From assembly GCF_000732725.1 (NCBI RefSeq), contig NZ_JPNB01000001.1, positions 434,001-498,000 on the forward strand: a DNA stretch of 64,000 nucleotides, read 5' to 3'. Below are positions 2,719-23,313 of this stretch, piece by piece. The notes under the pieces are model-generated. The model was not told where the DNA came from. It saw nothing but the letters and a program-made list of their open reading frames with translations, and searched no databases. The position numbers and the translations under genes are program-made. Positions within the stretch are counted from its first letter, which is position 1. Each line of letters begins with the position of its first letter. Origin of the DNA: Kineothrix alysoides (GTDB taxonomy: Bacteria > Bacillota > Clostridia > Lachnospirales > Lachnospiraceae).

Positions 2719-3780
2719 ATGGAATTGAGAAAAGGAAAAGAAAATGGGTGTTGGACAAAGGGAGTACGTTCTCTTTGCATAGCGTCGGCATTTTTCATAT
2801 TGCCGGTCTATGTGGTCGCTCGGTTATTGTTTAAGATAGCCGTTGTACGAGATAATGAAATCACATTTTTTAAACATCCGGCGGTAAGGTTTTTCATGGA
2901 CGGCATCGGCGGTAAAATAGATGCCATCAAAAATAATAGGACTGAGGAGCAGCCGGAATCAGGCATGGGATTCAAATGCTTTCGACAGGAAATGGAAGCC
3001 GGGAAAGCATGGTTCCTTTCGCAAAAGAAGGAGAGAATTACGATAACGAGCTTTGATGGTCTAAAGTTGGCGGCATATTATCTGCCGGCAGAGGGAGATT
3101 CCGATAAGGTGATGATTCTGATGCATGGATATCGCAATAATGGATTAGGGGATTTCAGCGGTTTGGTGGAATTCTATCACGGTATGGGCTATCATCTTCT
3201 TGTGCCTCATCAAAGAAGTCATGGGGAAAGTGAAGGTAGTTATATTTGTTACGGCGTGAAGGAGCGGTATGATCTGAAGCAATGGGCGGAATATGTGGTT
3301 AGCCGTTTCGAAGGAAAATGCAGCGTCTTTTTCTCCGGTATCTCCATGGGCGGGGCTACGGTACTCATGGCAACAGATCTGGAGCTGCCGTCTCAGGTGA
3401 AAGCAATCATAGCAGATTGTGCGTTTACTTCGCCATGGGATACTTTTTCTCATGTGATGAAAATGGATTATCATCTACCGAAATTTCCTTTTTTATATGC
3501 AGCTGATTATGTATGCAGAAAGAGGGCGGGATTTCGTTTTAAAGAGTGCAGCACAATTTCGTGCATGAAAAAAAATAAAATTCCGGTATTGTTCATCCAC
3601 GGCGGAAGAGACACCTTCGTGCCCACAGAGATGAGCTATAAAAATTACGAGGCCTGCGCTGCCCCAAAGGAAATACTAATTGTGGATCAGGCGGCTCACG
3701 GAACCAGCAACCTGGTGGAGCCGGAGGCTTACCGGAGTACGGTAATAGAATTTATGGAGAAATGGACCAATGGAAATTAA
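2719..3780 (+). CDS. Alpha/beta hydrolase, membrane-anchored
   Basis: Serine hydrolase of about 353 aa. An N-terminal hydrophobic segment (about residues 15-40) probably anchors it in the membrane. The fold is shown by the oxyanion HGYRNN motif, the nucleophile elbow GISMGG (Ser209), an acid in HGGRDTFVP (Asp298) and the catalytic His327 in QAAHGTS. The substrate is unknown; this BAAT/acyl-hydrolase-like group acts on esters or peptides. ATG 2719 has AAAGGG at good spacing; an in-frame GTG at 2713 is the alternative. The 3' end overlaps the next gene by 11 bp, suggesting translational coupling. Confidence 0.85.
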   Translation: MELRKGKENGCWTKGVRSLCIASAFFILPVYVVARLLFKIAVVRDNEITFFKHPAVRFFMDGIGGKIDAIKNNRTEEQPESGMGFKCFRQEMEAGKAWFLSQKKERITITSFDGLKLAAYYLPAEGDSDKVMILMHGYRNNGLGDFSGLVEFYHGMGYHLLVPHQRSHGESEGSYICYGVKERYDLKQWAEYVVSRFEGKCSVFFSGISMGGATVLMATDLELPSQVKAIIADCAFTSPWDTFSHVMKMDYHLPKFPFLYAADYVCRKRAGFRFKECSTISCMKKNKIPVLFIHGGRDTFVPTEMSYKNYEACAAPKEILIVDQAAHGTSNLVEPEAYRSTVIEFMEKWTNGN

Positions 3781-4345
3781 GGAACTGATACACTTTATAG
3801 GACTGCTGGAAAAGCTGAAATGCAATACGCGGCATTCGTGGACGACCAGCGGCAGAAAGGAAAGTGTGGCGGAGCACAGCTTTATGCTGACTGTTATGGC
3901 ATACATGGTAAAGGATGCTTTTCCGGAAACAGATATAAATAAGGTAATTGTTATGTGTCTTTTGCATGATTTCGGCGAGGCTGTGACCGGAGATATTCCT
4001 GCTTTTGAAAAGACCAAGGGGGATGAAGACACGGAGGAGAAGGCGATTGATGGCCTGCTTAAAGAGCTGCCGGATAAGCAGAAAGCGGAAATGAGAGCCT
4101 TGTTTCAGGAGATGAAAGAGATGAAGACCCCTGAGGCGAAGTTATGCAAGGGGCTGGATAAAATGGAGGCGGTGCTGCAGCATAATGAGGCAGATATTAG
4201 TACGTGGCTGCCTTTAGAATACGATTTGCAGCTTAATTATGGGGAGAAAGAAGTGGCATTTTCTCCTTATCTTGTGGCTTTGAGGGAGCAGTTGAATGAG
4301 GATAGCAGGGAGAAGATTGTTAAGGAGAAAGGGGTAATGGAATAG
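3770..4345 (+). CDS. HD-domain hydrolase, YfbR-like 5'-nucleotidase family
   Basis: Metal-dependent phosphohydrolase of 191 aa, the usual size of YfbR-like 5'-deoxynucleotidases. The HD metal site is complete: His36 (AEHSF), His66-Asp67 (CLLHDFGE), Glu70, Asp75 and a distal Asp130 (GLDKMEA). Members of the family remove phosphate from nucleoside 5'-monophosphates, so a housekeeping nucleotide-pool role is likely; the exact substrate is inferred. It overlaps the upstream hydrolase gene by 11 bp and is probably co-transcribed with it. Confidence 0.85.
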   Translation: MEIKELIHFIGLLEKLKCNTRHSWTTSGRKESVAEHSFMLTVMAYMVKDAFPETDINKVIVMCLLHDFGEAVTGDIPAFEKTKGDEDTEEKAIDGLLKELPDKQKAEMRALFQEMKEMKTPEAKLCKGLDKMEAVLQHNEADISTWLPLEYDLQLNYGEKEVAFSPYLVALREQLNEDSREKIVKEKGVME

Positions 4346-5748: not shown

Positions 5749-7608
5749 ATGGATATAGGAAGTAAGAGGAATGAAGTCAGGGGAAGCGGAAAGAGAAATG
5801 AGGGACGTAGTAGTAATGGTGCTAAAGGGAAAAGTGTGCAGACAAAGAGTGGAAATAGGAGTGCAAACGTGAGCGGAAAAGGAGATAAGAGTAAATATAA
5901 GGAAAAAGGTAAGTTGGGGGATGAAAATAGGAACTGGGAAAAAAGAGGGAGAGATAATGGTGAGGGTTCGCGGGGAAATGAAGGGAAAGAAGGCAGAGCA
6001 GTAAATAGAAAAGCAAATGAAAAAGTGAATAGAAACGTAGATGGGGAGAGGGATAGACGAAGAAATGAAAGTGTAAATAGAGAGTGGGAAAAACGAAGCA
6101 GAGGTAACGGTGAGGGATTGCAGACAAGTGAAGGGAAAGCAGGCAGAAAAGGGAATGGAAGTACTGATAGGGCGTGGGAAAAGCGAGGGAGAGGTAATGG
6201 CGAGAGCTTGCGGACAGGTGAAGGGAAAGTAAGCAGGAAAGGCAATGCAAACGCTGATAGGGAGAGGAACGGGCGAAGAACTGAAAGCGTAAACGGAGAG
6301 TGGAAAGCACAAAAGAGAGGTACTAGTGATAGTTCGCAGATAAATGGTGTGAAAGGGAATGGTAGGGAGGATAGATCTAAAGATAATTGGAGGAAAGAAG
6401 GTACTAAAGGGGCCTCTGAAAAGGGTGGAAAGTTTAAGATGAAGAACAAAGACAGCCGATGCAAAGTGTCTGAAGAATGCGGCGGCTGCAAAATGATAAA
6501 TGTGCCCTATTCCGAACAGCTCCTATGGAAGCAAAGGGAGACGGAAAAGCTTTTAAAGCCTTTTGTAAAGCTGGAAAGCATTATAGGGATGGAGGAGCCG
6601 GAGCACTATAGAAATAAGGTGAACGCAGCTTTTACACATGATAGAAAGGGCAAACCACTGTCAGGAGTATATAAAGAGGGAACGCATTATATCATTCCTG
6701 TCGAAGAATGTTTGCTTGAAAATAAAAAGGCTGATGAAATCATTGCTTCTATTAGAGAGCTTCTTCCTTCCTTTAAAATTAAGACGTATGATGAAGACAC
6801 GGGCTACGGGCTTCTTCGTCATGTGATGGTGCGCGTGGGGTATACCAGTGGTCAGATTATGGTAGTGCTTGTGCTCGCTTCACCCATTCTGCCATCCAAG
6901 AACAATTTTGTGAAAGCCCTGCTCAATCTTCAGCCGGACATTACTACAATTGTCATAAACGTGAATGACAGGAAGACGAGCATGGTTCTGGGGGATAAGG
7001 AGCAGGTGATATATGGAAAGGGTTATATAGAGGATAGTCTAAATGGAAGATCTTTCAAGATTTCTCCCAAATCCTTTTATCAGGTCAATTCCGTGCAGAC
7101 CCAGAAGCTCTATGGTAAGGCTATAGAATATGCCGGACTCATCGGAAAAGAGACGATACTCGATGCGTACTGCGGCATCGGTACCATCGGCATAATGGCA
7201 GCAGATAAAGCCAAGCAGGTAATTGGCGTAGAGTTAAATAAGGATGCCGTAAAGGACGCTATAATAAATGCCAAACAGAACAAAATATCCAACATCCAGT
7301 TTTATCAGAAGGATGCCGGTGAATTCATGGTGCAGCTTGCGGAGCAGGGGACGCAGATAGATACTGTATTCATGGACCCGCCTCGTGCAGGCAGTGACGA
7401 GGTATTCTTGAATTCATTGGCGGCGTTGAAACCTAAAAAAGTGGTGTATATTTCCTGTAATCCGGAAACGCTGGCTAGAGATTTGGAGTATTTGGTGAAG
7501 AAGGGGTATCGTGGAGTGACGGGAGTCGTGGTGGATATGTTTCCGTTTACGAATCATGTGGAGACGACGGTTCTGTTGCAAAGAAGAGATGCTGCCCCGG
7601 CACATTAA
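5749..7608 (+). CDS. RlmD/RumA-type 23S rRNA uracil-C5 methyltransferase with long low-complexity N-terminus
   Basis: The last 385 or so residues form a class I SAM-dependent RNA m5U methyltransferase. Iron-sulfur ligands are Cys238, Cys244, Cys247 and Cys321, spaced as in RumA. The SAM loop is DAYCGIGTIG (from 472), followed by DPPRAGSDE (543), and the catalytic cysteine is Cys570 in ISCNPETLARD. The first 230 residues are unusual: almost only Lys, Arg, Gly, Asn, Glu and Ser in loose repeats of about 35 residues, such as EWEKRSRGNGEG and AWEKRGRGNGES. No TRAM domain is visible, so this basic tail may replace it as an RNA-binding arm. A start closer to 6439 would give an ordinary-length enzyme. 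Confidence 0.88.
   Translation: MDIGSKRNEVRGSGKRNEGRSSNGAKGKSVQTKSGNRSANVSGKGDKSKYKEKGKLGDENRNWEKRGRDNGEGSRGNEGKEGRAVNRKANEKVNRNVDGERDRRRNESVNREWEKRSRGNGEGLQTSEGKAGRKGNGSTDRAWEKRGRGNGESLRTGEGKVSRKGNANADRERNGRRTESVNGEWKAQKRGTSDSSQINGVKGNGREDRSKDNWRKEGTKGASEKGGKFKMKNKDSRCKVSEECGGCKMINVPYSEQLLWKQRETEKLLKPFVKLESIIGMEEPEHYRNKVNAAFTHDRKGKPLSGVYKEGTHYIIPVEECLLENKKADEIIASIRELLPSFKIKTYDEDTGYGLLRHVMVRVGYTSGQIMVVLVLASPILPSKNNFVKALLNLQPDITTIVINVNDRKTSMVLGDKEQVIYGKGYIEDSLNGRSFKISPKSFYQVNSVQTQKLYGKAIEYAGLIGKETILDAYCGIGTIGIMAADKAKQVIGVELNKDAVKDAIINAKQNKISNIQFYQKDAGEFMVQLAEQGTQIDTVFMDPPRAGSDEVFLNSLAALKPKKVVYISCNPETLARDLEYLVKKGYRGVTGVVVDMFPFTNHVETTVLLQRRDAAPAH
5930..6330 (+). repeat. Degenerate coding repeats in the RlmD-like N-terminal extension
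   Basis: Within the extension, about 105-bp purine-rich units recur: a GAGTGGGAAAA-type segment, then GAGAGGTAATGGCGAG-like, then GTGAAGGGAAA. Three to four copies can be traced. The complementary strand carries long open frames only because the tract is purine-rich; those are not genes. Confidence 0.65.
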
Positions 7609-8200
7609 AGAACGGGTAGAACAAAAAGAAAATAGGGAATAAAGGGAAGACATTATAGTGCAATCATTTTAGGGTGATATAAGAATATCCCTTGGGCAGA
7701 GGGAGGAACATTATTTTTCTTCTACAAATGAAGAGTTAGGACAAGGATGTATTACTTCGAACCCTATTAGCTAATATATATTTAGAGAAAAGGTGGAAAG
7801 AGTATGGGGGATACTGAAATAATACTGCATTTGATTGAAAAAGGTGTAGAAAATGAATGGGTGGATTTCAAACAAGAATATTATTTAAAAGAGAAAAGGG
7901 CTGATTTAATTAAAGATATATGTGCGTTCGCCAATGGTGAAAGTATCGAAGATAAGTATATTATATTTGGTGTCAGTAATCAGGGATGTGAGATCTGTGG
8001 ATTTTCAAGGGATTTAGAAGATGTTTCTGTTATAAACCAATTATTAGAAGAAAATGTAGAGCCTTTTATAAATATATCTATAGGTATGTTTAATTACAAG
8101 GGAAAAAATATTGGATATATTAAAATTCATGATAATAATAATAGACCATTGGTCCTATGTCAAGATTTAGTACAAGTTAAAATGATAAAATAATCCTCCT

Positions 8201-9115
8201 CTAACCTACCAGCTGTAAACCATCCTCGAGTGCCTTTTCATAAAGCTTTTCGAATTCATTGGGCGATATATAATCGCAATGACTATGGATTCGCTTTGTG
8301 TTGTAGAATGCTTCAATGTATTCAAATACTAACCGGTACGCTTGCTCATAATTACCGATTTTGAAGCGATTCAGCCATTCTCTTTTGATTAAGGAATGGA
8401 AGGATTCAATACAGGCGTTGTCCCAGGGAAATGCCTTTTTCGAATAGCTCCGCTGCATATTTGCAGTTGCTTTCCGATATTCGTTTGACACATACTGGCT
8501 TCCGCGATCGCTGTGCAGAATAAGCGGTTGTTCCGTGTTACGTCTGGCTTTTGCTTTGTTAATGGTATCAATAACGCATGCTACACCCATTGAATCAGAT
8601 AAAGTCCATGCGACTATTTTTCTTGAAAATAAGTCCATAATGCTTGTCAGATATGTGAAGCCTTCTGTCGTCCAGATATATGTAATGTCACTGCACCACA
8701 CTGCATTTGGACGCTCTGGGTTGAATTGCTCATTTAATATATTTTGAAGTTCATTGCTGAAATAGGAATCTTTGGTGGTAATTGTCCATGGTTTTACCCA
8801 TTGAGCCCTGATTCCTAGCTGGGACATGTATTTGCCTACCGTGCGTTCAGAAATAATTTCGCCTTCTTGTTGCAACTTTTTTGCAATTTTCGGAGCGCCG
8901 TAGTTCTGTTTGGAATCATCGTAAATGTCCATGATCTTTACTTTAACAGCCTCTCTACGTTGCTGTGTATTAGAAGGCATACGGTTTTGCCATGCACGAT
9001 ATCCAGACCGTGAAACGCCAAGGATTTTCAGCATCCCGGAGACAGAAACCTGGCGATTAGCTTTCATGGCAGCGTCTGTCTTTTCGGAGACTTCAAGGTA
9101 AATGGCTTCTGTCAT
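8201..9115 (-). CDS. IS3-family transposase OrfB (DDE integrase)
   Basis: 304 aa with an HTH_21-like region (about 55-110) and an rve integrase core. The catalytic triad is Asp143 (CSDITYI), Asp203 (HSDRGSQY) and Glu237 (NACIESFHS), with 33 residues between the last two, slightly shorter than the usual 35. The start ATGA overlaps the orfA stop. A GGGAAAATGA run at this junction could support a programmed -1 frameshift that makes the OrfAB fusion transposase, as is known for IS3 elements. Confidence 0.93.
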   Translation of the reverse strand: MTEAIYLEVSEKTDAAMKANRQVSVSGMLKILGVSRSGYRAWQNRMPSNTQQRREAVKVKIMDIYDDSKQNYGAPKIAKKLQQEGEIISERTVGKYMSQLGIRAQWVKPWTITTKDSYFSNELQNILNEQFNPERPNAVWCSDITYIWTTEGFTYLTSIMDLFSRKIVAWTLSDSMGVACVIDTINKAKARRNTEQPLILHSDRGSQYVSNEYRKATANMQRSYSKKAFPWDNACIESFHSLIKREWLNRFKIGNYEQAYRLVFEYIEAFYNTKRIHSHCDYISPNEFEKLYEKALEDGLQLVG

Positions 9116-9396
9116 TTTCCCAGAATGCTGATGGCTTTTTTTAGTACGTCAAGAGCATCCTGAGTATCACGTAGTTCACGCTTGAGATGAGCGATTTCCT
9201 TCGCTTCATCAGAAGAATAATTTCCGGATCCACGGCTTTTAATGTCACCGGTTTCACGTAGTTCTTTTTGCCATCTGGAAAGAGTCTGCTGACTGATTCC
9301 CATATTTGTAGCACAACCGACAAGACCTAGTTCCTTGTGATCCTGATAATACTGAACTGCATCCAGCTTAAACTGCTTGTCAAAATGTTTCGGCAT
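9112..9396 (-). CDS. IS3-family transposase OrfA (HTH)
   Basis: 94 aa. The N-terminal helix-turn-helix (residues 8-50, with TLSRWQKELRE as recognition helix) is followed by a leucine-zipper-like coiled coil (about 63-90, HLKRELRDTQDALDVLKKA). This is the usual layout of IS3/IS911 OrfA, which binds the terminal repeats. GGAGG lies upstream of the start. Confidence 0.92.
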   Translation of the reverse strand: MPKHFDKQFKLDAVQYYQDHKELGLVGCATNMGISQQTLSRWQKELRETGDIKSRGSGNYSSDEAKEIAHLKRELRDTQDALDVLKKAISILGK

Positions 9397-10189: not shown

Positions 10190-10288
10190 CAGAAAGATAT
10201 ATGTGTATCTAGGTAGCACACTCGAGGAATTGTGAAGTAATCGTTAAGCTTGAAAAGCAATAGAACGTAGTAATATCAATAGTTTAAG

Positions 10289-10325
10289 CCATTGAGTGTG
10301 TAGATGACATTCAATGGTTTTTTTG
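10289..10325 (+). terminator. Rho-independent terminator
   Basis: An 11-bp stem (CCATTGAGTGT paired with ACATTCAATGG, one G-T wobble) with a 7-nt loop is followed by seven T residues. It would isolate the cas region from transcription coming from the left. Confidence 0.85.
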
Positions 10326-10379
10326 TTCATAGGAACATATCCAATGGATTTTTTGATTTTGTTGTGGTGAACTGGTGAG

Positions 10380-10772
10380 TATGATAATCCTGTTCTTGAA
10401 AGTACAAAAGATACCCTTGCATCTGTTCAAAATAAATTACCCTATGCTGTCACAGGAGGAACTGTTGCAAAGCTTATTTCTGAAAGAGTAAATAGTTTTA
10501 AAGATAGTATGGGGTTGACAGTCACTGACTACCAGACGAGTAGAATGGTATTTTGTTAAAACAAATCAGATAGAACAGTAAACAATCAAAATGTTAGATG
10601 GTTAAAAAACATTGATGGCACTCACACTATGATGGAATGTTACCAGAAAATTATTTTGTGAATATGGAATTGTAAGCAAAAAGGCGATTGCTACAGACCA
10701 TTCATTTTCGGGAATCGGTTCTTATTGGCGTTTAGAAAAATCAAATAAAGAAGTATTTTACAAAATAATATA
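10380..10772 (+). pseudogene. Unidentified decayed gene fragments
   Basis: Two protein-like fragments survive. 10380-10558 reads YDNPVLESTKDTLASVQNKL, then a TGGTVAKLISERV-type helix, ending in a stop. About 10675-10772 reads KKAIATDHSFSGIGSYWRLE and ends in TAA. They are in broken frames and look like the middle and C-terminus of a lost gene. The family was not recognised. The second fragment ends on top of the TATAAT box described next. Confidence 0.4.
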
Positions 10773-10806
10773 ATTGTGATAAAATTATTTTAATAAATTT
10801 TAAGAG
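10769..10806 (+). promoter_or_regulatory. TATAAT promoter overlapped by a candidate Cascade target site
   Basis: 10769-10774 is a perfect TATAAT; the -35 at 17 bp (TAAAGA) is weak. The last three bases, AAT, act as a PAM-like triplet, and 10775 onward is complementary in sense to the pseudo-spacer at 10914. Positions 1-5, 7-11 and 13-18 match (16 of 18) and only positions 6 and 12 differ; matching stops after 18. Every sixth crRNA base is flipped out in Cascade, so this is an effectively perfect 18-nt seed-proximal match. Binding here would cover -10 and +1. The transcript would run toward cas3. Confidence 0.72.
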
Positions 10807-10814
10807 AGAAAAAA

Positions 10815-10823
10815 ATGATATAG
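10815..10823 (+). other. Candidate CreT-like mini-ORF (ATG-ATA-TAG)
   Basis: Thirty-five to forty bases downstream of the targeted TATAAT lies a start codon followed by one ATA and a stop. A weak ribosome binding site (AAGAGAG) sits 6 nt ahead. Published CreT toxin RNAs are tiny ORFs whose rare codons trap a scarce tRNA, and one class uses ATA. A short GGAA/TTCC hairpin follows at about 10829-10846. ATA does not look rare in this genome, and a nine-base ORF can occur by chance, so this is a hypothesis only. Confidence 0.3.
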
Positions 10824-10844
10824 GCAATAGGAAGTTTTTTTCCT

Positions 10845-10874
10845 TTGAAGCAAAAGAAAAAGGTTTGCGATAAT
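10845..10874 (+). promoter_or_regulatory. Possible promoter of the crRNA-like unit
   Basis: TTGAAG (10845-10850) and GATAAT (10869-10874) are separated by 18 bp. Initiation would fall near 10881, a few bases before the first degenerate repeat at 10885. It could give the crRNA-like RNA its own promoter, separate from the targeted TATAAT. Confidence 0.45.
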
Positions 10875-10884
10875 AATGAGTAGA

Positions 10885-10973
10885 ATGTTTCCTGCACTAG
10901 CAGGAGTGATCCATGTGACAAAATAATTTTATAGGAAAGATCAAAGTGTTCCCCGCATATGCGGGGGTGTGAA
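10885..10973 (+). ncRNA. Degenerate mini-CRISPR (CreA/CreR-like guide RNA)
   Basis: Repeat-like R1 (10885-10912), a 33-nt pseudo-spacer (10913-10945) and repeat-like R2 (10946-10973) keep the exact 61-bp period of the main array. R1 has compensatory stem changes (TCCTGC/GCAGGA) and keeps GTGATCC, the Cas6e-generated 5' handle. R2 keeps GTGTT and a perfect CCCCGC-ATAT-GCGGGG hairpin but its handle has mutated to GTGTGAA. Cas6e processing would therefore yield one crRNA-like RNA with handle, guide and 3' hairpin. The guide starts TGTGACAAAATAATTTTA and matches the promoter at 10775. The unit lies 75 bp upstream of cas3. Confidence 0.75.
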
Positions 10974-11047
10974 TAATCTCTATGAATTTTTTGTCTTTTT
11001 AACTGCTTCTAGTCAAAACCCAATTTAATTACTTTGGAGGAAAACCT

Positions 11048-13792
11048 ATGCGTATAAAAACTAACCTATGGGGTAAGAAAAAAGAAAAAGACGGACAATA
11101 CTACTGGCTCCCGCTTGAGCAGCATTTACTGGATACATCGAATGTCATGATCCAATTATGGAACCATTGGCTTAGCGAGGGACAAAGAAAATTTATTCTG
11201 CAGTCCATTTCTGATTCTGAAGAGAATGCTGGAGTAAACATCGTATCCTTTATAGGCTTAACGCATGATCTTGCCAAAGCCACACCCTGTTTTGCTTTGA
11301 GGCCGTCAGGGAACAACCAATCAGCAGATCTGGACAAAATACTGACAGAAAACCTGATAAGATCAGGATTTACCGGACTGGAAAATTGGAGCACAGAATT
11401 ATCATCAAAATCCCCCCATGCCCTGGCAAGTCAGGTCTTACTGGATTCTTATGGTGTTGGCGAAGATATTGCATCAATTATCGGCGGACATCATGGAAAG
11501 CCGGTAGGCGATAAGAAGGAAATCAGTGTGCAGCTGGAGGCTTACACTGCGAACTACTATCAATATGACCATGACGGTGAATGCACTGAGAACTGGAAGA
11601 AGATGCAGCGTAAATTGTTTGAGTGGGCACTGGAGGAGGCCGGATATAAGAATGTTGATGCGCTTCCGAAGATTGAGCAGCCTGCACAGGTTCTTATACA
11701 AGGTCTTCTTATTATGGCTGACTGGATTGCCAGTAATGAGGAGTATTTTCCTTTGTTTCCGATAGATAAGGAGGAAGAGGAGTTTCAAGAAGAACGTTTG
11801 GAATATGGATGGGAGCGTTGGACCAAGACATATCCATGGATCGCTGAGTGCGTTGGTGGTGTTGAGGAGCAATACAACAAAAGATTTCAGTTTCACCCAA
11901 GAGAAATACAGCGGGCATTTTCTGAAGCCATTGATAAAACGCAAAACCCGGGAATTATTATACTGGAAGCGCCTATGGGTATTGGAAAAACAGAAGCCGC
12001 GTTATTGGGGGTTGAACAATTGGCGGAGAAAGGAAAGTGCTCCGGCATGTTTTTTGGCTTACCGACACAGGCGACCTCTGATGGCATTTTCCAAAGGATT
12101 GAGGAATGGATTGAAAAAATTGCCAGAGAAACGGGAGATGATAAATCTATTCAACTCGTGCACGGGAAAGCACAGTTTAACGAGACATTCCAGAACTTGA
12201 AAAATGCAGAGAATATTTATGCGGATGAGGGCAGTGTTGTTATCAATGAATGGTTTATGGGAAGAAAAACTGCCATATTAGATGATTTCGTTGTTGGAAC
12301 TGTGGATCAGTTTTTATTGGCGGGATTAAAGCAGAAACATCTGGCGCTTAGACATTTGGGATTATCCAAGAAGGTCATCGTGATTGACGAAGTACATGCA
12401 TACGATGCTTATATGGGAGAATTTCTATATCGGGTTGTCGAGTGGCTCGGTGCATACCAGGTACCGATAATCATCCTGTCTGCGACGCTGCCGGCATCGA
12501 GACGGACAAGATTAGTCGAAACTTATTGCAGGGGTATGGGGATGAAGAAGCGGAATATAAAGGCAGAATATACCGACTGGGAAGAAACAGAAGCCTATCC
12601 CTTGATTACATACACAGACGGTGACAGGGTCAGCCAGCTGCGGAATTTCCCGTTGGAAGACACAAAAGAAGTAAAAGTGGAATTGATTGGAGAAGATGAT
12701 TTAGTAACAATCCTTCAAAGAACGCTTTCGAAGGGAGGGATTGCAGGGATTATTGTCAATACGGTGAAACGGGCGCAAGAACTTGCTGAGAAATTAGAGC
12801 ACATATTTGGACGAGAAAATATCAGCGTACTGCACTCCGGCTTTCTGGCTCCCCACAGACGGGAAAAAGAAAAGCAGTTGCTAAATGAAATCGGGAAAAA
12901 TGCCAAACGCCCCAAACTGAGAATTGTTATAGGAACACAAGTGCTAGAACAGTCGCTGGACATAGATTTTGATGTACTTTTTACAGATATTGCCCCCATG
13001 GATTTGTTGCTTCAGCGAATCGGACGGCTGCATAGGCATGCGGAAACGATAAGGCCGAAAGACCTGAAGGATCCTGTTGTGTATGTGATGGGCATACAGG
13101 GAATGGCGGAATTTGAGGAGGGGACGAGGACGATATATGGAGATTATTTGCTGACTCGCACACAATTAGTCCTTCCGGAAAAGCTGGTGCTTCCTGAGGA
13201 TATATCCAGACTGGTTCAGAAAGTATATAAAGAAAATTCAAAGGAAGAATTAGATATCCCCGTATCAATAAGAGAAAAATATGAGGAAGTGAAAGAAAAA
13301 GACTGGTCAGAAAGAACGAAAAAGGAAAAAAATGCAGATGTCTTTCGCCTTGCGAAGCCGTATTACCCGGAGAGAGGCAGCCTGATTGGCTGGTTAAGGG
13401 ACGGCATACAAAGTGATACGGAAGCGGCGGGACTGGCTAGAGTTCGGGATGGCTCTGATTCCATGGAGGTCATATTGGTCAAGAGAAAAGAAGACGGATT
13501 GTATCTATTGGATGATACCACAAATATCAGTGGCGATTTAACGCCCGCTCTTGCAAAGAAAATATCCCAACAGACGATTCGTCTTCCTCATATATTCAGC
13601 TTTCAAACGGATGATTTGATTCATGTATTAGAGGAACGTAATAAAGCTGAACTTTCTCACTGGCAAAGTGAACCTTGGTTAAAAGGAAGTCTGGGAATCA
13701 TTCTTGATGAAGAGAATCGTGTCACTCTGATGGGATATAAGCTTCATTATGATCAACAATATGGATTGATGGTTGGAAAGGAGGAAGGATGA
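11048..13792 (+). CDS. cas3: CRISPR-associated nuclease/helicase Cas3 (type I-E)
   Basis: 914 aa effector recruited by target-bound Cascade to nick and degrade foreign DNA. The N-terminal HD nuclease has His26 and His73-Asp74 (GLTHDLAK) with a downstream GGHHGK. The SF2 helicase has Walker A GIGKT at 311-315, DEVH at 447-450, SATLP near 477 and motif VI QRIGRLHRH at 656-664. The length is normal for I-E. TTTGGAGG lies 8 nt before the start. The stop overlaps the cse1 start (ATGA). The 5' UTR holds the degenerate mini-CRISPR, suggesting guide-directed autoregulation. Confidence 0.97.
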   Translation: MRIKTNLWGKKKEKDGQYYWLPLEQHLLDTSNVMIQLWNHWLSEGQRKFILQSISDSEENAGVNIVSFIGLTHDLAKATPCFALRPSGNNQSADLDKILTENLIRSGFTGLENWSTELSSKSPHALASQVLLDSYGVGEDIASIIGGHHGKPVGDKKEISVQLEAYTANYYQYDHDGECTENWKKMQRKLFEWALEEAGYKNVDALPKIEQPAQVLIQGLLIMADWIASNEEYFPLFPIDKEEEEFQEERLEYGWERWTKTYPWIAECVGGVEEQYNKRFQFHPREIQRAFSEAIDKTQNPGIIILEAPMGIGKTEAALLGVEQLAEKGKCSGMFFGLPTQATSDGIFQRIEEWIEKIARETGDDKSIQLVHGKAQFNETFQNLKNAENIYADEGSVVINEWFMGRKTAILDDFVVGTVDQFLLAGLKQKHLALRHLGLSKKVIVIDEVHAYDAYMGEFLYRVVEWLGAYQVPIIILSATLPASRRTRLVETYCRGMGMKKRNIKAEYTDWEETEAYPLITYTDGDRVSQLRNFPLEDTKEVKVELIGEDDLVTILQRTLSKGGIAGIIVNTVKRAQELAEKLEHIFGRENISVLHSGFLAPHRREKEKQLLNEIGKNAKRPKLRIVIGTQVLEQSLDIDFDVLFTDIAPMDLLLQRIGRLHRHAETIRPKDLKDPVVYVMGIQGMAEFEEGTRTIYGDYLLTRTQLVLPEKLVLPEDISRLVQKVYKENSKEELDIPVSIREKYEEVKEKDWSERTKKEKNADVFRLAKPYYPERGSLIGWLRDGIQSDTEAAGLARVRDGSDSMEVILVKRKEDGLYLLDDTTNISGDLTPALAKKISQQTIRLPHIFSFQTDDLIHVLEERNKAELSHWQSEPWLKGSLGIILDEENRVTLMGYKLHYDQQYGLMVGKEEG

Positions 13793-15444
13793 GTCAATTT
13801 AATTTATTGGATGAAAAATGGTTAATGGTTATGATCGGTGAGAAAGGAGAAACAGAAGAAGTATCATTAAAGGAATTGTTCGGGAATGCGCATCAGTATA
13901 AGCGGCTTGTCGGGGAAACACCCACACAGGATTTTGCAGTCTTACGGCTGCTGTTAGCCGTGTTAAATACGGTTTTTACCAGATTTACGGCAATGGGTGA
14001 GTGCTATGAAGGGGTGGCTGTGGATGCGGACACATTTCAAGTCAGGGAAGAAATCGATGAAGATGATATATTGGAATACAAAGAAGATTTATATATGACT
14101 TGGAAAGCTCTTTGGGAAAAAGGGGAATTTCCGGATATTGTGAATGATTATCTGGAAAAATATCGTCATCGTTTTTATTTACTCGATGAAAAATATCCTT
14201 TTTTTCAATTTCCGGAAATTGGAGAACCTGATTATCCCTATAGTGCAACGGATAATGGCATCAACAAATTAAATGGTAAGATTCTAGAGGGGGATCCGAG
14301 GAAACCCAGACTTTTTATGAGCCAGTATCAAACCGGATTACCGTATTCGGCTGCGGCCAGATGGCTGCTATATACCAACGGGTACGCACCTTCAAAGTCG
14401 GGAAATCCAGGCAAGAAGAAAAAGAGAGAATCTACAGGGGTTGCCTATTTAGGAAAGCTGGGCGGCATTTATGCCAGCGGAAAGAATCTCTTTGAAACCT
14501 TGTTACTGAACCTGAATCTTCCTGAGAATGCTTGTGTGCAAAAGCCAATATGGGAAGCGGAACCCAAAATCAATCAGTTCCAGGCAATACCGGATAATCT
14601 GGCCCAGCTCTTCACTTATCCCAGCAGGCAGCTGCTTTTAAAGGCGGATGAGGATCATAAGATTATTGAATACAGGCTGGATCTGGCTGTCAGCAATTTT
14701 GAATATGAGCCAAATTTAAAAATAGAACCGTTTACATTCTGGAGGTATGATACCAAGCTTGATGTCGGAAAATGGAAAGAAAAAGAGGGATTTGTGCCGA
14801 AACGTCATGATCCGGATAAGTATTTCTGGCAGGAGATGCAGACCTTTTCTTCCATTGAAGAAAAGAACTATAATCCGGGTATTATTGAGTGGCTTAGAAG
14901 ACTGCAGGGAGATAAGCTTGTAACAGGTCTGATATCACTCAATGCAGTGGCGGAAAATTATATTCAAAAAGATGGTGTGGTAGACAGACAGGTATACGAT
15001 CAGATTAATGAAAATATTGACTTATTGGACAAGCAGGAAAATGGCTGGCTGACCTGTATTGCAGAGGAGATAAAAAATACAGAGAAAGTCATTGGAAATA
15101 CTGTGATTCGTTTTGCCAGGGATATTGATAAAATACGGAATTTACAAAATGGTGCCACGGAACAAAAAATAAAAACACAGATATTCTTTTCCATCGACCG
15201 CCGCTTTCGTGAGTGGCTAATCAGTATTTCACCGCAGGATGAGAAAAAAGAGCGCACACGGGAATGGAAGAACATACTGCGAGAAGAAATTGCTAAACAG
15301 GGAGGCGAATTAATACAGGAAGCAGGAAGCAGAGATTATCTTGGTTATTACACAGATAAAAACAAGAGCAAGCTGGAAAATATAGAAACGGCTTATATTA
15401 GGTTCAGAACAAATTTGAAAAGAGAATTGGGGGTGAGAGAATGA
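13789..15444 (+). CDS. cse1: Cascade large subunit Cse1/Cas8e
   Basis: 551 aa, somewhat longer than E. coli CasA. It begins with the typical FNLLDEKWLMV and has the ARWLLYTNGYAP region and a helical C-terminal bundle. Cse1 recognises the PAM and recruits Cas3. It overlaps cas3 by 4 bp (ATGA) and cse2 by 4 bp, so translation is likely coupled. Assigned from motifs and its conserved place in the operon. Confidence 0.95.
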   Translation: MSQFNLLDEKWLMVMIGEKGETEEVSLKELFGNAHQYKRLVGETPTQDFAVLRLLLAVLNTVFTRFTAMGECYEGVAVDADTFQVREEIDEDDILEYKEDLYMTWKALWEKGEFPDIVNDYLEKYRHRFYLLDEKYPFFQFPEIGEPDYPYSATDNGINKLNGKILEGDPRKPRLFMSQYQTGLPYSAAARWLLYTNGYAPSKSGNPGKKKKRESTGVAYLGKLGGIYASGKNLFETLLLNLNLPENACVQKPIWEAEPKINQFQAIPDNLAQLFTYPSRQLLLKADEDHKIIEYRLDLAVSNFEYEPNLKIEPFTFWRYDTKLDVGKWKEKEGFVPKRHDPDKYFWQEMQTFSSIEEKNYNPGIIEWLRRLQGDKLVTGLISLNAVAENYIQKDGVVDRQVYDQINENIDLLDKQENGWLTCIAEEIKNTEKVIGNTVIRFARDIDKIRNLQNGATEQKIKTQIFFSIDRRFREWLISISPQDEKKERTREWKNILREEIAKQGGELIQEAGSRDYLGYYTDKNKSKLENIETAYIRFRTNLKRELGVRE

Positions 15445-16022
15445 GCGAAAACTTATACAAAGTAACTGAAAGAATTCTTTGTAAACTGGGGGAGCGGCTG
15501 GAATTATCTGAGACAAGGGCTACTTTATCCCGTCTAAGAAATTCTATAGGCCGGGATATTTCAGAAACACTTGAAATTTGGCCGTTAGTGTTTGAAGAAG
15601 TACCGGTGGAATACTTAAGTAAAAACGGAATACCTACCCATGAGGAAAATGCAATAGTAGCCTCTTTGCAGTTGTATGCACTGCATCAGCAGGGAAAGAA
15701 TAAATCTGTGCATGAATCTTCTTGTAATAGTATTGGAAAAGCCTTACATGAGATTAGGGGTATGGACAATACAACATTAGACAGGCGATTTAATTCACTG
15801 ATTACTTCCGGTAATTTTAAAGAACTGACCACACATTTACGTCATCTCATCAGCATACTCAAACGAGAAGCGGATACAAAAATCGATTATGCTAAATTAG
15901 CAGGGGATTTCTATTGGTATCAGAGTTCGCCGGAATCTGCCAATCGCATGCGTATGTGTTGGGGACAAGATTATTATTTCTATCAAGTAAAAGAGAAAGA
16001 AGGAGAAAAAGATGCAGAATAA
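15441..16022 (+). CDS. cse2: Cascade small subunit Cse2/Cas11e
   Basis: 193 aa, all-helical and basic, the usual size for Cse2, present as a dimer along the Cascade belly. The C-terminus (ANRMRMCWGQDYY) resembles the family signature in which the domain ends close to a Trp-Gly. Four-bp overlap with cse1; 11-bp overlap with cas7e. Confidence 0.93.
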   Translation: MSENLYKVTERILCKLGERLELSETRATLSRLRNSIGRDISETLEIWPLVFEEVPVEYLSKNGIPTHEENAIVASLQLYALHQQGKNKSVHESSCNSIGKALHEIRGMDNTTLDRRFNSLITSGNFKELTTHLRHLISILKREADTKIDYAKLAGDFYWYQSSPESANRMRMCWGQDYYFYQVKEKEGEKDAE

Positions 16023-17070
16023 TATTTATGTTGATTTACATGTGCTTCAGACTGTTCCGCCAAGTAATATTAACCGGGATGATACAGGCAGTCCCAAAAC
16101 TGCCAGGTATGGAGGCGTTACACGGGCCCGGGTATCTTCTCAAAGCTGGAAAAAGGCTATGAGAAAATATTTCAAAGAGCATGAAGATAAAGAAACTCTG
16201 GGAATCAGAACAAAGAAAATTGTACATTCACTTGCAAAAGCTATTATGGAAAAGGAACCGTCAATGGATGAAAGCAGTGCGCTTAAGTTAGCGGAAGAGA
16301 TTTTTAATAAAGCAAAAATATCTACAAAAGACCAGGAGGCTAAGGCACTTTTTTTCCTGGGTGGCAAACAACAGCAAATGCTTGCGTCTTATGGAGTGGA
16401 ACACTTAGGCGATTTACAGGCGAAAGAGATTCAGAGTATCTTAAATGCAAATCAAAGTATTGATGTTGCTTTGTTCGGACGTATGGTCGCAGACGCGCCG
16501 GAATTGAACGTAGATGCAAGCTCACAAGTTGCCCATGCTATATCGACACATGAAATTGCGACAGAGTTTGATTTTTTCACAGCCGTTGATGATTTAACAC
16601 CCGATGATCAGGCAGGCGCGGGTATGCTTGGAACGGTGGAATATAATTCTTCTACCTTATACAGGTATGCGAATGTGGCGGTGCATGAACTGAGTGTTCA
16701 GTTGGGAGACAATAAAGATGCGGTAATTGAGGCGTTAAAACTTTTTGTGAAATCATTTGTGCAGTCCTTACCATCAGGAAAGATCAATACATTTGCCAAT
16801 CAGACGCTTCCTGATGCGTTAATCGTTTCTATTCGCTCGGATCGCCCGGTGAATCTGGTAAATGCCTTTGAAAATCCTGTTAAATCCCAGGGCGGATATG
16901 TAACCGGGTCTATTTCCAGGCTGAAAACAGAATTTGAAAAAATTGACCGTTTTGCGGAGGAACCTATTGCGACGTTTACAGTGGGTGATATAGAGGGACT
17001 GGGAGAAGGCAAGAAGAATTTAAATGAGCTTTTGGAGAAGGTTGGAGAAACTATAGATAGACTGCTATAG
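16012..17070 (+). CDS. cas7: Cascade backbone subunit Cas7e/Cse4
   Basis: 352 aa, the RAMP-type subunit that polymerises along the crRNA and flips every sixth base. The N-terminus (NIYVDLHVLQTVPPSNINRD, then GGVTRARVSSQSWKKAMR) is diagnostic. The finger, palm and thumb organisation is implied by full length. Overlaps cse2 by 11 bp; GAAGGAGAAAAAG serves as ribosome binding site inside cse2. Confidence 0.96.
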   Translation: MQNNIYVDLHVLQTVPPSNINRDDTGSPKTARYGGVTRARVSSQSWKKAMRKYFKEHEDKETLGIRTKKIVHSLAKAIMEKEPSMDESSALKLAEEIFNKAKISTKDQEAKALFFLGGKQQQMLASYGVEHLGDLQAKEIQSILNANQSIDVALFGRMVADAPELNVDASSQVAHAISTHEIATEFDFFTAVDDLTPDDQAGAGMLGTVEYNSSTLYRYANVAVHELSVQLGDNKDAVIEALKLFVKSFVQSLPSGKINTFANQTLPDALIVSIRSDRPVNLVNAFENPVKSQGGYVTGSISRLKTEFEKIDRFAEEPIATFTVGDIEGLGEGKKNLNELLEKVGETIDRLL

Positions 17071-17079
17071 GTGAGGTTC

Positions 17080-17802
17080 ATGATGAAAACAATTATATTA
17101 AAATTTTCGGGTCCGCTGCAATCTTGGGGAACTGGTTCTAATTTTGAAACCAGGGATACGGCAAGATATCCTACAAAAAGTGCAGTCATCGGGTTAATTG
17201 GCGGTGCCTTGGGGTATCGTCGGGATGAAACTGAAAAAATCCAAGAGCTCAATGAATTGTCTTTCGGAGTCCGTATTGAACAAAGGGGCACCTTGTTAAA
17301 GGATTATCATATTGCAAGGTCTGCAAATCAGACTTATGTGACAAATCGATATTACCTGCAAGACGCTGTTTTTCTGGCAATGCTTTCTCATGAAGATTCA
17401 AGTTGGATTGATACTGTGGCAAAAGCACTTGTTTCGCCTGTTTTTCCACTTTATATGGGACGGCGCAGTGTTCCGGTGGACAGTGAATTTTTTCAAGGAG
17501 TTGTAGAAAACGATTTATTATCTACCATTAAATCGTATCATTGGCAGGCGAGTGGGTGGTATCAGAAAAAGCTTTCACGAGAAAGTAAATTGAATAGGAT
17601 TATGTTAGATGCTTATGTAGATGCCAGTTTATTAGATGATTCTTTACCGCCTATGTTTCAACGGGATAGAGTAGAGTCATTTGATTTGATGAATCGGAAC
17701 CATAGTTTTAGGCCGGTAAAATCCATGCAAGTCGAAATTCAAACCGCAGAAATGGGCAAAGACACAGAACATGATGCTTTTCAAGGAATAGGAGGCGTAT
17801 GA
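17080..17802 (+). CDS. cas5e: Cascade subunit Cas5e
   Basis: 240 aa RAMP protein that holds the crRNA 5' handle. It starts MKTIILKFSGPLQSWGTGSN and continues with the conserved TARYPTKSAVIGLIGGALG. ATG 17080 (or 17083) follows GGTGAGG at good spacing, and I prefer it to the upstream in-frame GTG at 17071. The stop overlaps cas6e (ATGATG junction). Confidence 0.95.
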   Translation: MMKTIILKFSGPLQSWGTGSNFETRDTARYPTKSAVIGLIGGALGYRRDETEKIQELNELSFGVRIEQRGTLLKDYHIARSANQTYVTNRYYLQDAVFLAMLSHEDSSWIDTVAKALVSPVFPLYMGRRSVPVDSEFFQGVVENDLLSTIKSYHWQASGWYQKKLSRESKLNRIMLDAYVDASLLDDSLPPMFQRDRVESFDLMNRNHSFRPVKSMQVEIQTAEMGKDTEHDAFQGIGGV

Positions 17803-18431
17803 TGTATTATATTTCGCGAGTGGAAATTGATACAGGAAACCGAAGAAAGATTTCGGAACTTACCCATTTAGGCGCATATCACAATTGGGTTGAGAAAAGC
17901 TTTCCCGAAGAATTTGCTACAGGGGAAAGAAGCCGTAAATTGTGGCGAGTCGATCAACTGAAGGGACGAAGCTATCTGTTGATTGTCAGCCAAGGTGAGC
18001 CGAATATGACACAATTGGAAGCATATGGAGTTCCTGGCACCGGACAATGTAAAACCTATGATGCATTTTTACAGGGCCTGACACATGGTCAGAAAATGTC
18101 ATTTCGATTAACGGCCAATCCTGCAAGAGCGGCTAAGCAAGAGGCTCAAAGAGGAAAGGTTTGTCCACACACTACAGTTGAGAAGCAATTGGAATATCTG
18201 GAAGAACGAGCAGAGAGACTGGGATTTTCTTTGGTGGATTATGACTATCAGATTGTACAAAGAGACTTCCCGATATTGAGGAAAAAAGGCGGAAAAAGTA
18301 TTAAATTAGCCAGGGCAATTTATGAAGGAAGTCTGATTATTGAAAATGATGAGATTTTTAGAAAAACCTTAACTGAGGGTGTGGGAAAAGAGAAAGCATA
18401 TGGTTTTGGAATGATGACCGTAGTACCGTGA
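17799..18431 (+). CDS. cas6e: crRNA endonuclease Cas6e
   Basis: 210 aa two-RRM RNase that cuts each repeat at the 3' base of its hairpin and stays bound. His23 and His28 in the LTHLGAYHNWVEKSFP segment match the region carrying the catalytic His of E. coli CasE. The C-terminus has the Gly-rich loop GVGKEKAYGFGMM typical of the family. In this locus it should leave the 8-nt handle GTGATCC plus one variable base. GGAGG precedes the start. Confidence 0.95.
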   Translation: MMYYISRVEIDTGNRRKISELTHLGAYHNWVEKSFPEEFATGERSRKLWRVDQLKGRSYLLIVSQGEPNMTQLEAYGVPGTGQCKTYDAFLQGLTHGQKMSFRLTANPARAAKQEAQRGKVCPHTTVEKQLEYLEERAERLGFSLVDYDYQIVQRDFPILRKKGGKSIKLARAIYEGSLIIENDEIFRKTLTEGVGKEKAYGFGMMTVVP

Positions 18432-18440
18432 GGAAGATAG

Positions 18441-19376
<936 letters not shown>

Positions 19377-19391
19377 AAGGGGGCTGTGGAT

Positions 19392-20273
19392 ATGCCTATG
19401 ACGGTTGTTACATTGACAAATGTACCCAGTTCGTTAAGAGGAGATTTGACGAAATGGATGCAAGAAATATCTACAGGTGTTTATGTAGGAAATATAAATA
19501 CACGAATCAGAGAAGAGTTATGGAAACGAATCATTGATAACATCAAACAGGGACAGGCAACAATGTCTTATGCTAAACGTAATGAAATAGGTTATGACTT
19601 CGTGGTTCATAATACAAAGAGAGAAGTGATTTATTACGATGGAATACCTCTGGTTTTTCTGCCAAAAGAATTAAGCGCTACGCCACTGCAGCAGTTGGGA
19701 TTCAGCAATGCCGCTAAATATGAAAAAATAAAAAAGGCCAGACAACGCAGAAACGCTATAAGCGAAAATGAGAGTGAGAATTATGTGGTTGTCGATGTAG
19801 AAACAACAGGTATTAATTCAGAGAAAGATCAGATTATTGAGATAGCTGCAATAAAAATGGAAGGCAATGAGATGATTGTTTTTCAGGAATTGGTTAAAAT
19901 TGAAAAAGGACTTCAAAGAGAAATATCTGAGCTAACGGGAATTACGGATGAAATGCTTGCTAATGACGGGAAGGATATAGATGTCGTGCTTGATGAATTC
20001 TTGGATTTTGTGGGAAAGTCAATTCTAGTAGGATATAATGTAAAATTTGATATCAGTTTTCTTAATGCTGGGTTAAAAAAGAATGGTAATGCAGTATTGA
20101 CAAATAAAACGATATGTCTTTTACAAGAGGCGAAAAGGAAACAGAAACTGCTACGAGATTATAAGCTAAGTACTGTTTTAAAGAAATACAATATAAGTAC
20201 AGAAGGTTTGCATCGAGCATATGTAGATGTCAAGGCAGAATATGAATTAGCGGTAAAACTAAATATTTTTTGA
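19392..20273 (+). CDS. cas2: Cas2e fused to a DnaQ-like 3'-5' exonuclease
   Basis: 293 aa. Residues 1-95 are Cas2e (MTVVTLTNVPSSLRGDLTKW). After a basic linker (about 105-128), residues 130-293 form a DEDDh exonuclease with Asp135, Glu137, Asp220, His274 and Asp279 all present. In such fusions, known from several type I-E systems, the DnaQ part trims the 3' ends of prespacers, including the PAM end. ATG 19392 follows AAAGGGGG; an in-frame GTG at 19386 is also possible. The array begins 44 bp after the stop. Confidence 0.96.
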   Translation: MPMTVVTLTNVPSSLRGDLTKWMQEISTGVYVGNINTRIREELWKRIIDNIKQGQATMSYAKRNEIGYDFVVHNTKREVIYYDGIPLVFLPKELSATPLQQLGFSNAAKYEKIKKARQRRNAISENESENYVVVDVETTGINSEKDQIIEIAAIKMEGNEMIVFQELVKIEKGLQREISELTGITDEMLANDGKDIDVVLDEFLDFVGKSILVGYNVKFDISFLNAGLKKNGNAVLTNKTICLLQEAKRKQKLLRDYKLSTVLKKYNISTEGLHRAYVDVKAEYELAVKLNIF

Positions 20274-20317: not shown

Positions 20318-23313
20318 GTGTTCCCCGCGTAGGCGGGAGTGATCCCTGTCGCAATACTCTTCTTAAGTGTTTCCTGCGGTGTTCCCCGCGTAGGCGGGAG
20401 TGATCCTACACCCTATTACTTGCATGGATGTACCAAAATGTGTTCCCCGCGTAGGCGGGAGTGATCCCATCCATGAGCAGAGAAAAACTTTTAAGGGAAA
20501 GTGTTCCCCGCGTAGGCGGGAGTGATCCCAGTTGGATACTAACTCTAAAATGGTTATAGAGGTGTTCCCCGCGTAGGCGGGAGTGATCCCATGATCGCAT
20601 TCGGTGTTTACTCGGACGTAGCGTGTTCCCCGCGTAGGCGGGAGTGATCCTGAAACAAATTTACCTGAAGAAGATGTATTGAAGTGTTCCCCGCGTAGGC
20701 GGGAGTGATCCCCAAGGCTTTACATGCTCGTTGTACCATTTATAGTGTTCCCCGCGTAGGCGGGAGTGATCCTACTGGCATTGCGGCTGATTGCATATTC
20801 CCTGAGTGTTCCCCGCGTAGGCGGGAGTGATCCTAATGCAGAACGGTTCATTAAGAGACTGGAAGGGTGTTCCCCGCGTAGGCGGGAGTGATCCTTTCCC
20901 ATCATAGTTATTCAACGTGAAAACCATGTGTTCCCCGCGTAGGCGGGAGTGATCCCTGGAAACTGGCGCGAGTCTTGGCGCTCTCGGCGTGTTCCCCGCG
21001 TAGGCGGGAGTGATCCTGGAGAGTATCAACAATAACGCTACGCCGGAAGGTGTTCCCCGCGTAGGCGGGAGTGATCCTGCTAAAGCTTCAACTTTTGATG
21101 TAAGCTGTGCGTGTTCCCCGCGTAGGCGGGAGTGATCCTTGTTCCATCTGTCAAAACGTTCAGTCCGTGTGGTGTTCCCCGCGTAGGCGGGAGTGATCCT
21201 GAATGCAAGAATGAGCGATTTGGATGCCCTAGGTGTTCCCCGCGTAGGCGGGAGTGATCCTGCAGGAAACGCTTAAGAGGAGTATAGCAACGGGTGTTCC
21301 CCGCGTAGGCGGGAGTGATCCTGTCGGATATGCACTGCTGAAAGTACCATCCGCGTGTTCCCCGCGTAGGCGGGAGTGATCCTCCATGCTTGCTGGTAGT
21401 AATCAGCAATCTTGTGTGTTCCCCGCGTAGGCGGGAGTGATCCCGAAGCATTCCGCAAGCTCCCCACTGGAACAGCGTGTTCCCCGCGTAGGCGGGAGTG
21501 ATCCTCGAAAAAGGAACAATGAAAGTAACAAAAGATGGTGTTCCCCGCGTAGGCGGGAGTGATCCTTGCATTTACAATCGTTGTTACCGTGGTCTTGAGT
21601 GTTCCCCGCGTAGGCGGGAGTGATCCTTTTAAAGGTGATCCGTGATGGATCTGAGAACGGTGTTCCCCGCGTAGGCGGGAGTGATCCTTGACGGTAGAGC
21701 AGTCAGAGAAGCAGCCATGAGTGTTCCCCGCGTAGGCGGGAGTGATCCTGTCCCGGCTCGACATCTTGCCCGATACAATACGTGTTCCCCGCGTAGGCGG
21801 GAGTGATCCTATCATGTACTTCTGTTTCACAATAATTATCTTGTGTTCCCCGCGTAGGCGGGAGTGATCCTCCGGACAACAATCGCATTCGCCTAATCCA
21901 GCAGTGTTCCCCGCGTAGGCGGGAGTGATCCTAAGTTGCCCCACCACCATTTCCAGCTTTATATGTGTTCCCCGCGTAGGCGGGAGTGATCCTTCATTTT
22001 TATAACAGTTCAAGTCCATTTTAATGTGTTCCCCGCGTAGGCGGGAGTGATCCCGGGTTTATGTGGCTTCGATCAGATATAGGCATGTGTTCCCCGCGTA
22101 GGCGGGAGTGATCCACAGGTATTGCAGACAGCCCCCAAACCAGCAAAGTGTTCCCCGCGTAGGCGGGAGTGATCCTAAAATCCGCCACAAGATTTCCATC
22201 TATGGTCCGTGTTCCCCGCGTAGGCGGGAGTGATCCCGCGCTCTTGCAGATATTCTCTGAGATAATGCAGTGTTCCCCGCGTAGGCGGGAGTGATCCTAC
22301 CAGCCTTTTTATTTTTGTAGACATCCACAAGTGTTCCCCGCGTAGGCGGGAGTGATCCTCTCCGTTCTTTGCTTCCATGAAATCCATAGATGTGTTCCCC
22401 GCGTAGGCGGGAGTGATCCTAGTGGAAAAAGCTAAATGTAAATATTGTCAATGTGTTCCCCGCGTAGGCGGGAGTGATCCTATCACAAGAACTAATCAAA
22501 GGAGCAAGTATACGTGTTCCCCGCGTAGGCGGGAGTGATCCTCACCGGTGCCGCGCAGTTTCATATCCTCTTCAGTGTTCCCCGCGTAGGCGGGAGTGAT
22601 CCTATAATGCAACAATCAGAAAATATACACATACAGTGTTCCCCGCGTAGGCGGGAGTGATCCTCTTAGGAGCAACATCATTCTTCCACCAGTCTGGTGT
22701 TCCCCGCGTAGGCGGGAGTGATCCTACCGAATGGGTATCTCAAACGGCACAATGTACGTGTTCCCCGCGTAGGCGGGAGTGATCCTGTGAAAGTTGTGTA
22801 TGCCATAGTGACCGCCTTGTGTTCCCCGCGTAGGCGGGAGTGATCCTGCTGATAGTAGCAGTTGCAGGCTTAGTAGTCGGTGTTCCCCGCGTAGGCGGGA
22901 GTGATCCTTGTGGCCTATTTGTGTCACGGAGAGGAAAAGCGTGTTCCCCGCGTAGGCGGGAGTGATCCTAGATTATACGCAAATATATGCACAGTTCCAT
23001 AGTGTTCCCCGCGTAGGCGGGAGTGATCCTCCAAGCAATCCAGAGGATATTCGCATGCATGGGTGTTCCCCGCGTAGGCGGGAGTGATCCTCCCCGTGGC
23101 GGCTTCCATTTCTTTCATCGTCTGTGTTCCCCGCGTAGGCGGGAGTGATCCTGGTGATTTTCTCACGCAACAACTTACCAATCAGTGCTCCCCGCGTAGG
23201 CGGGGATGATCCTATCCTCCGCGACCAGACGCCCAAGCACCGGGGGTAATCCTTAGGGGATAAGGTGGGGCCATATATCGGTACCGTGTTCCCCGCATGA
23301 GCGGGGGGTAACC
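20318..23313 (+). CRISPR. Type I-E CRISPR array, 47 regular and 3 degenerate repeats
   Basis: Repeats start at 20318 and recur every 61 bp without slippage to 23124 (47 copies, apparently identical by eye). The repeat is 28 bp: GTGTTCCCCGCGTAGGCGGG followed by AGTGATCC. The following base (position 29, repeat- or PAM-derived) is T 37 times, C 9 times and A once, then 32-bp spacers. The hairpin is CCCGC-GTAG-GCGGG. Three decayed repeats close the array at 23185, 23225 and 23286; the spacer after 23185 is shortened to 12 bp. The orientation, leader beside cas2, is supported by decay at the far end and by the handle position. No spacer was seen to match this window. Confidence 0.98.

Follow-up and report, generated by a model that had tools for sequence, protein, structure and literature searches.

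Three described systems come closest to the locus analysed here: CreR, the cas-regulating RNA reportedly introduced by Liu et al. in 2023, CreTA, reportedly described by Li et al. in 2021, and CrePA, reportedly described by Shu et al. in 2025. According to the excerpt of one source, types I-B, I-E and V-A show autorepression mediated by CreRs (PMC13131331). An excerpt on CreTA places its pairing at guide positions 1–5 and 7–11, with positions 6 and 12 unread (PMC8501985), and the CrePA protein named in the excerpt of a review is a KilA-N protein (PMC12737573).

The window, i.e. the whole stretch of 64,000 nucleotides analysed (Kineothrix alysoides, contig NZ_JPNB01000001.1, positions 434,001 to 498,000), carries a small element with a spacer-like guide ahead of a complete type I-E cas operon (cas3, cse1, cse2, cas7, cas5, cas6e, cas1e and cas2e). 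Judged from sequence, this element is probably a CreR-type autorepressor (probability about 0.65), through which Cascade would repress its own operon without cutting. CreR in type I-E has already been published, and the window element joins a known class. As in the CreRs of the excerpted source, a crRNA-like guide gene lies beside cas genes and is partially complementary to a PAM-flanked site at a promoter, here a predicted one, before these genes (PMC13131331). It differs from them in the 92-nt leader that separates this promoter (P1) from the guide. With CreTA, as far as the excerpts go, the locus shares a spacer-like guide set between two degenerate repeats (PMC8501985, PMC9458426, PMC10097628), a guide gene that follows the targeted promoter and unread positions 6 and 12, but its pairing reaches position 17–18 whereas that of CreTA is given as reaching 11.

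A guide element and its target upstream of cas3

The features of the locus are as follows.

10757-10785, + strand: P1, predicted promoter (TTTACA, 17 nt, TAAAAT, TG before the −10)
10772-10774, + strand: PAM AAT, the end of TATAAT at 10769-10774
10775-10792, + strand, the same strand as the guide: target site of the guide (16/18 identical, mismatches at 6 and 12)
10793-10884, + strand: leader, 92 nt, from P1 to the guide gene, holding ATG ATA TAG and a second promoter-like site
10845-10874, + strand: second promoter-like site (TTGAAG, 18 nt, GATAAT, TG before the −10), weaker than P1
10885-10973, + strand: two-repeat element, alone, outside the array, upstream of the cas operon
10885-10912 plus A10913, + strand: PsiR1, degenerate repeat (from sequence and fold)
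10906-10913, + strand: 5' handle GTGATCCA, 8 nt, at the end of PsiR1 and completed by A10913
10914-10945, + strand: spacer-like guide, 32 nt (from sequence)
10946-10973, + strand: PsiR2, second degenerate repeat (from sequence, repeat-pattern search and fold)
11048-13792, + strand: cas3 (TIGR01587, TIGR01596)
13789-18431, + strand: cse1, cse2, cas7, cas5 and cas6e, encoding Cascade (TIGR02547, TIGR02548, TIGR01869, TIGR01868, TIGR01907)
18441-20273, + strand: cas1e and cas2e, the latter fused to a DnaQ-like exonuclease domain (TIGR03638; TIGR01873 plus DnaQ-type models)
20318-23313, + strand: CRISPR array, with 47 repeats that differ from GTGTTCCCCGCGTAGGCGGGAGTGATCC at no more than 2 positions and, at its far end, 2 degenerate repeats

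Re-reading of the sequence bore out the original prediction of a two-repeat pseudo-CRISPR at 10885-10973. PsiR1 and PsiR2 both differ from the array repeat, and each was computed to fold into a 7-pair hairpin with a 4-nt loop. This is the arrangement by which a CreR is recognised, i.e. a spacer-like guide between CRISPR-repeat-like hairpins, beside cas genes and outside an array. A search of the organism's own genome with the repeat pattern returned only PsiR2 and 47 array repeats at 0 mismatches and thus no second guide element, although PsiR1 is itself too divergent to be recovered in this way and more degenerate elements could escape. Allowing 2 mismatches added four matches, of which two are repeats at the array end and two lie elsewhere. 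An 82% match on C2 was rejected as a further element by eye, being A/T-rich and lacking a repeat pair, and the two Rfam matches both lay far below gathering scores. Some repeat sets, including those of the array and of the related locus G461, came from a best-match search that may omit weaker repeats and that skipped PsiR2 once.

Alignment of guide nucleotides 1–18 with 10775-10792 reproduced the predicted match, with mismatches at 6 and 12 only; by eye the similarity stops after 18, and AAT, the end of TATAAT, directly precedes the target, both as claimed. All 10 seed positions (1–5 and 7–11) match at this AAT-flanked site, which overlaps predicted P1. The pattern AAYTGTGANAAAATNATTTT (PAM AAY, positions 6 and 12 free) occurred once in the 4.68-Mb genome with 0 mismatches, nowhere with 1 and at six sites with 2, so that the genome holds no further target with fewer than 2 mismatches. 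When 10724-10884 was shuffled preserving dinucleotides, 0/5000 sequences equalled the observed match and 1/5000 reached 10/10 in the seed alone; with shuffled flanks within 600 nt, 0/2000 were as good.

In type I-E, the base after the repeat derives from the PAM. This base was T or C after 45/46 array repeats in the window, 37/37 in a second genome of the genus (G012) and 17/17 in G461, making AAY the likely PAM, which AAT fits. Searches for protospacers from which to read the PAM matched 0/5 patterns in viral contigs and gave no usable match in phages (one weak match of 69%).

Within 19386-20273 the Cas2e domain is fused to the DnaQ-like exonuclease domain. The DNA upstream of the cas locus includes an IS3 transposase adjoined by a short frame of the Schlafen AlbA_2 kind (PDC-S50-like; 7804-9396), and a 619-aa frame at 5749-7608 has a long, repetitive, highly charged first part followed, by eye, by an apparently RNA-methyltransferase-like part.

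Predicted promoters and a proposed mode of action

P1 (10/12 consensus matches) was the best of four promoter-like sites in 10600-11100, a number not in excess, since shuffles gave 2.2 ± 1.5. The TATAAT at 10769-10774 named in the original prediction is present in the sequence, but as the sole −10 it was rejected, as the −10 of the better-scoring P1 (TAAAAT, ending at 10785) is also covered by the target. A footprint of the PAM plus 32 bp (10772-10806) would extend from about −20 to about +14 relative to predicted P1. P1 is oriented towards cas3, with the second promoter-like site standing between and no terminator-like site found in 10600-11100; the second site is largely conserved in G012.

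Cutting by type I-E systems needs a near-complete R-loop. In the mechanism we propose, Cas6e would cut the transcript of 10885-10973 at both degenerate hairpins, yielding a crRNA-like RNA of about 61 nt that bears the handle. Cascade loaded with this RNA would bind the AAT-flanked site, 15 read bases being paired and every sixth skipped, and its footprint on P1 would block RNA polymerase. Because pairing ends at 18 of 32 nucleotides, Cas3 should not cut there. Since both the guide gene and the cas operon lie in the direction of P1, the complex would limit its own production; whenever crRNAs or anti-CRISPRs draw Cascade away, a rise in expression would be expected. The second promoter-like site could drive the guide and cas genes past a repressed P1.

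Guide and target changed in step in a second genome

Among 16 genomes of the genus, the module with cas3 occurred in two, the organism's own and G012, whose cas3 is 92% identical to that of the window. Conservation of the guide-target pairing in relatives had been set beforehand as a test. At all four differing read positions (2, 5, 9 and 15), guide and target of G012 carry the same substitution relative to the window, and changes out of step fell at positions 6, 12 and 18: at 6 the unlike letters of the window are a matching pair in G012, and at 12 and 18 only the target changed. By eye, both targets begin 40–41 nt before a common ATGAT. In G012, guide and target agree without exception over 17 nt, also at 6 and 12, so part of their likeness may be due to gene conversion. 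We conclude that the guide-target pair is real and very probably under selection.

Recurrence of guide-target pairs in related loci

We sought cas3 in sets of 61, 397, 392, 398, 130, 11 and 1 genomes, which overlap, and scanned the DNA around related cas3 genes in 47 and then 33 stretches, selected by Cas3 similarity alone and in some cases ended by contig ends. Of these 80 stretches, ten hold a guide element together with an AA-PAM site that it matches (window, G012, G150, G123, G068 and G461 in the first scan; G1281, G1302, G1265 and G1205 in the second), most I-E-like loci having no such pair. The guides of the eight loci besides the window and G012 are different ones; every one of them matches a site with an AA PAM close to a candidate promoter, and by eye they do not resemble one another. 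The pairing kept in G012, together with these eight loci, supports the original proposal of a Cascade-guided repressor acting on the promoter before cas3 or on a toxin RNA, the former branch being the better supported.

The number of shuffles as good as the observed match, out of 2000, was 0 for seven loci, 1 for G123, 4 for G068 and 22 for G1205; we regard the G1205 pair as weak and the G068 pair as moderate. Leaving positions 6 and 12 free gave nine matches within 1500 nt in the first set (six judged real) versus 2–5 for eight other position pairs, and six matches in the second (three judged real) versus 0–3 for five other pairs. As the detector leaves 6 and 12 free, mismatch only at these positions is circular for the loci it found and counts as an independent observation for the window and G012 only. 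G1205 came from a control scan with 1 and 7 free and has a mismatch at 1. Matches left out of the count were L121 and L107, which are array spacers, and, by eye, L106, L122, L169, L170, L172, window position 28899 and others in which the preceding sequence was not repeat-like or lay in an array. Seeds matched their own targets at 10/10 positions in 9/10 loci, versus at most 8 in 87 of 90 foreign pairings (two reached 9 and one 10), the loci having been chosen for their match.

A less circular search, blind to targets, for two-repeat elements before cas3 in 36 loci, found isolated pairs in four, all four with a target, and array-like series in two (G1201 and G1209), with a target found in neither; G1205 escaped this search, and single hairpins are seen in several loci. 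G1209 (L188, + strand, about 3810-3850) and G1201 (L183, reverse strand, about 3722-3760) have a guide-like stretch in common, TTGATTRTGATTAAACA, beside degenerate repeats before cas3, for which no target was found. A Sphaerochaetaceae assembly (L030) encodes a cas3 76% identical to that of the window, with a short frame that looks HD-like by eye and a repeat-like remnant upstream (689-1192 and 1143-1170), and no guide pair was found before this cas3.

Genes downstream of the targeted sites

By eye, no protein gene was seen between target and cas3 in G461, G1281, G1302, G1265 and G1205. In the first four of these, the target is flanked by the guide gene and cas3 and is close to the likely cas promoter, and in G1302, by eye, 14 nt separate the end of the site from the likely start of cas3; in G1205 the order is promoter, guide, cas3, as in the window. 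The arrangement in these five loci is the CreR situation.

What we least expected was that in three relatives the targeted promoter stands ahead of a defence- or toxin-like gene. The G150 target (L038, reverse strand, 528-1311) precedes a 174-aa frame and then cas3; this frame matches LPD3 with a score that falls short of the Pfam cut-off (23.4 bits versus 27, E 7.2e-5). In G068 (L061, 7049-8360) the target lies at the predicted transcription start of a DUF1016/YhcG gene (PADLOC PDC-S02), followed by the guide and cas3. Two copies of the site in G123 (L056, 11031-12961), where the region looks duplicated, precede an Abi_2/AbiD-like gene and cse1. Like CrePA, these loci have a guide-targeted promoter in front of a gene for a toxin- or defence-like protein, and they are candidate CrePA-type modules, differing in that their LPD3-like, DUF1016/YhcG and AbiD-like proteins replace the KilA-N protein of the excerpted review (PMC12737573). 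Unlike CrePA, the window shows no protein toxin gene under its targeted promoter, as no ORF of at least 90 aa was found between 10793 and cas3; candidates for such a gene were seen only in these three.

Where sites lie on the opposite strand, the PAM edge is at −44 or −45 of the first-listed promoter in G461 (L098), G1265 (L182) and both G123 copies; this pattern is absent in G1281 and G1205, and in G461 another promoter scores equally.

Alternative explanations

The alternative that survives best, though an unlikely one, is a CreTA in which a small toxic RNA (creT), transcribed from P1, is encoded within 10793-10884 and the guide serves as its antitoxin. Such a creT could tie up tRNA-Ile(CAU) through the minimal frame AUG-AUA-UAG and leave the cell dependent on Cascade; there is precedent in an excerpted account of a CreT that sequesters this tRNA and whose six-codon frame contains two AUA codons (PMC8501985). 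The order of promoter, leader and guide gene is that of CreTA, a separate promoter-like site lies just before PsiR1, and ATG ATA TAG is present at 10815-10823. However, G012 reads ATG ATG TGG at the same place, where it opens a 17-codon frame, and a 2-nt gap shifts the frames; a conserved creT peptide was rejected, as this longer frame is not kept in the window. The usual toxic RNA of CreTA has its mini-ORF behind a strong Shine-Dalgarno sequence, whereas no clear one was seen by eye before the mini-ORF in the window or G012. The predicted folding of the leader does not surpass that of shuffled sequences (z −0.76), and the leader of G1205, which has the same gene order, appears by eye too short for a similar creT. 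A CreR is preferred over CreTA because the mini-ORF is not conserved, a clear Shine-Dalgarno sequence is lacking and the leader folds as shuffles do.

Less probable again is that the guide represses only its own transcription or another P1 product, with the cas genes read mainly from the second or an unrecognised promoter. The promoter-like site at 10845-10874, with its TG before the −10 and largely conserved in G012, is in keeping with this, but the placement of the targets in G461, G1281, G1302 and G1265 next to a likely cas promoter speaks against it. A functionless, worn CRISPR remnant of two-spacer scale beside A/T-rich DNA (66–70% A+T over 10250-11249), or a mere chance likeness, is very improbable, for although both repeats depart from the array repeat and gene conversion can keep short duplicates alike, the shuffles did not reproduce the match, the target site is unique in the genome, mismatches are confined to unread positions, the hairpins are preserved, G012 changed in step and the arrangement recurs elsewhere with other guides.

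Implications for type I-E regulation

The in-step change of an RNA guide and its chromosomal target between two congeneric species provides genetic evidence, from natural variation, for the retention of a CRISPR effector as a gene regulator; the changes between window and G012 obey the every-sixth-base rule. More tentatively, Cascade-guided self-repression in the I-E systems of these bacteria may form a fast-evolving circuit whose passengers are none, AbiD-like, DUF1016/YhcG or LPD3-like, the window and G012 representing the bare form; we consider this possible, although doubtful. The ten pairs provide a test set for guide drift, the placement of sites on promoters and the wiring of toxin-like genes to the switch. 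If the circuit exists, it would be a merged CreR and CrePA switch, with the pairing in the window and G012 kept by compensatory change, and loss of Cascade to anti-CRISPRs would jointly raise expression of the cas genes and of a toxin-like defence gene, both being read from promoters under control of a guide.
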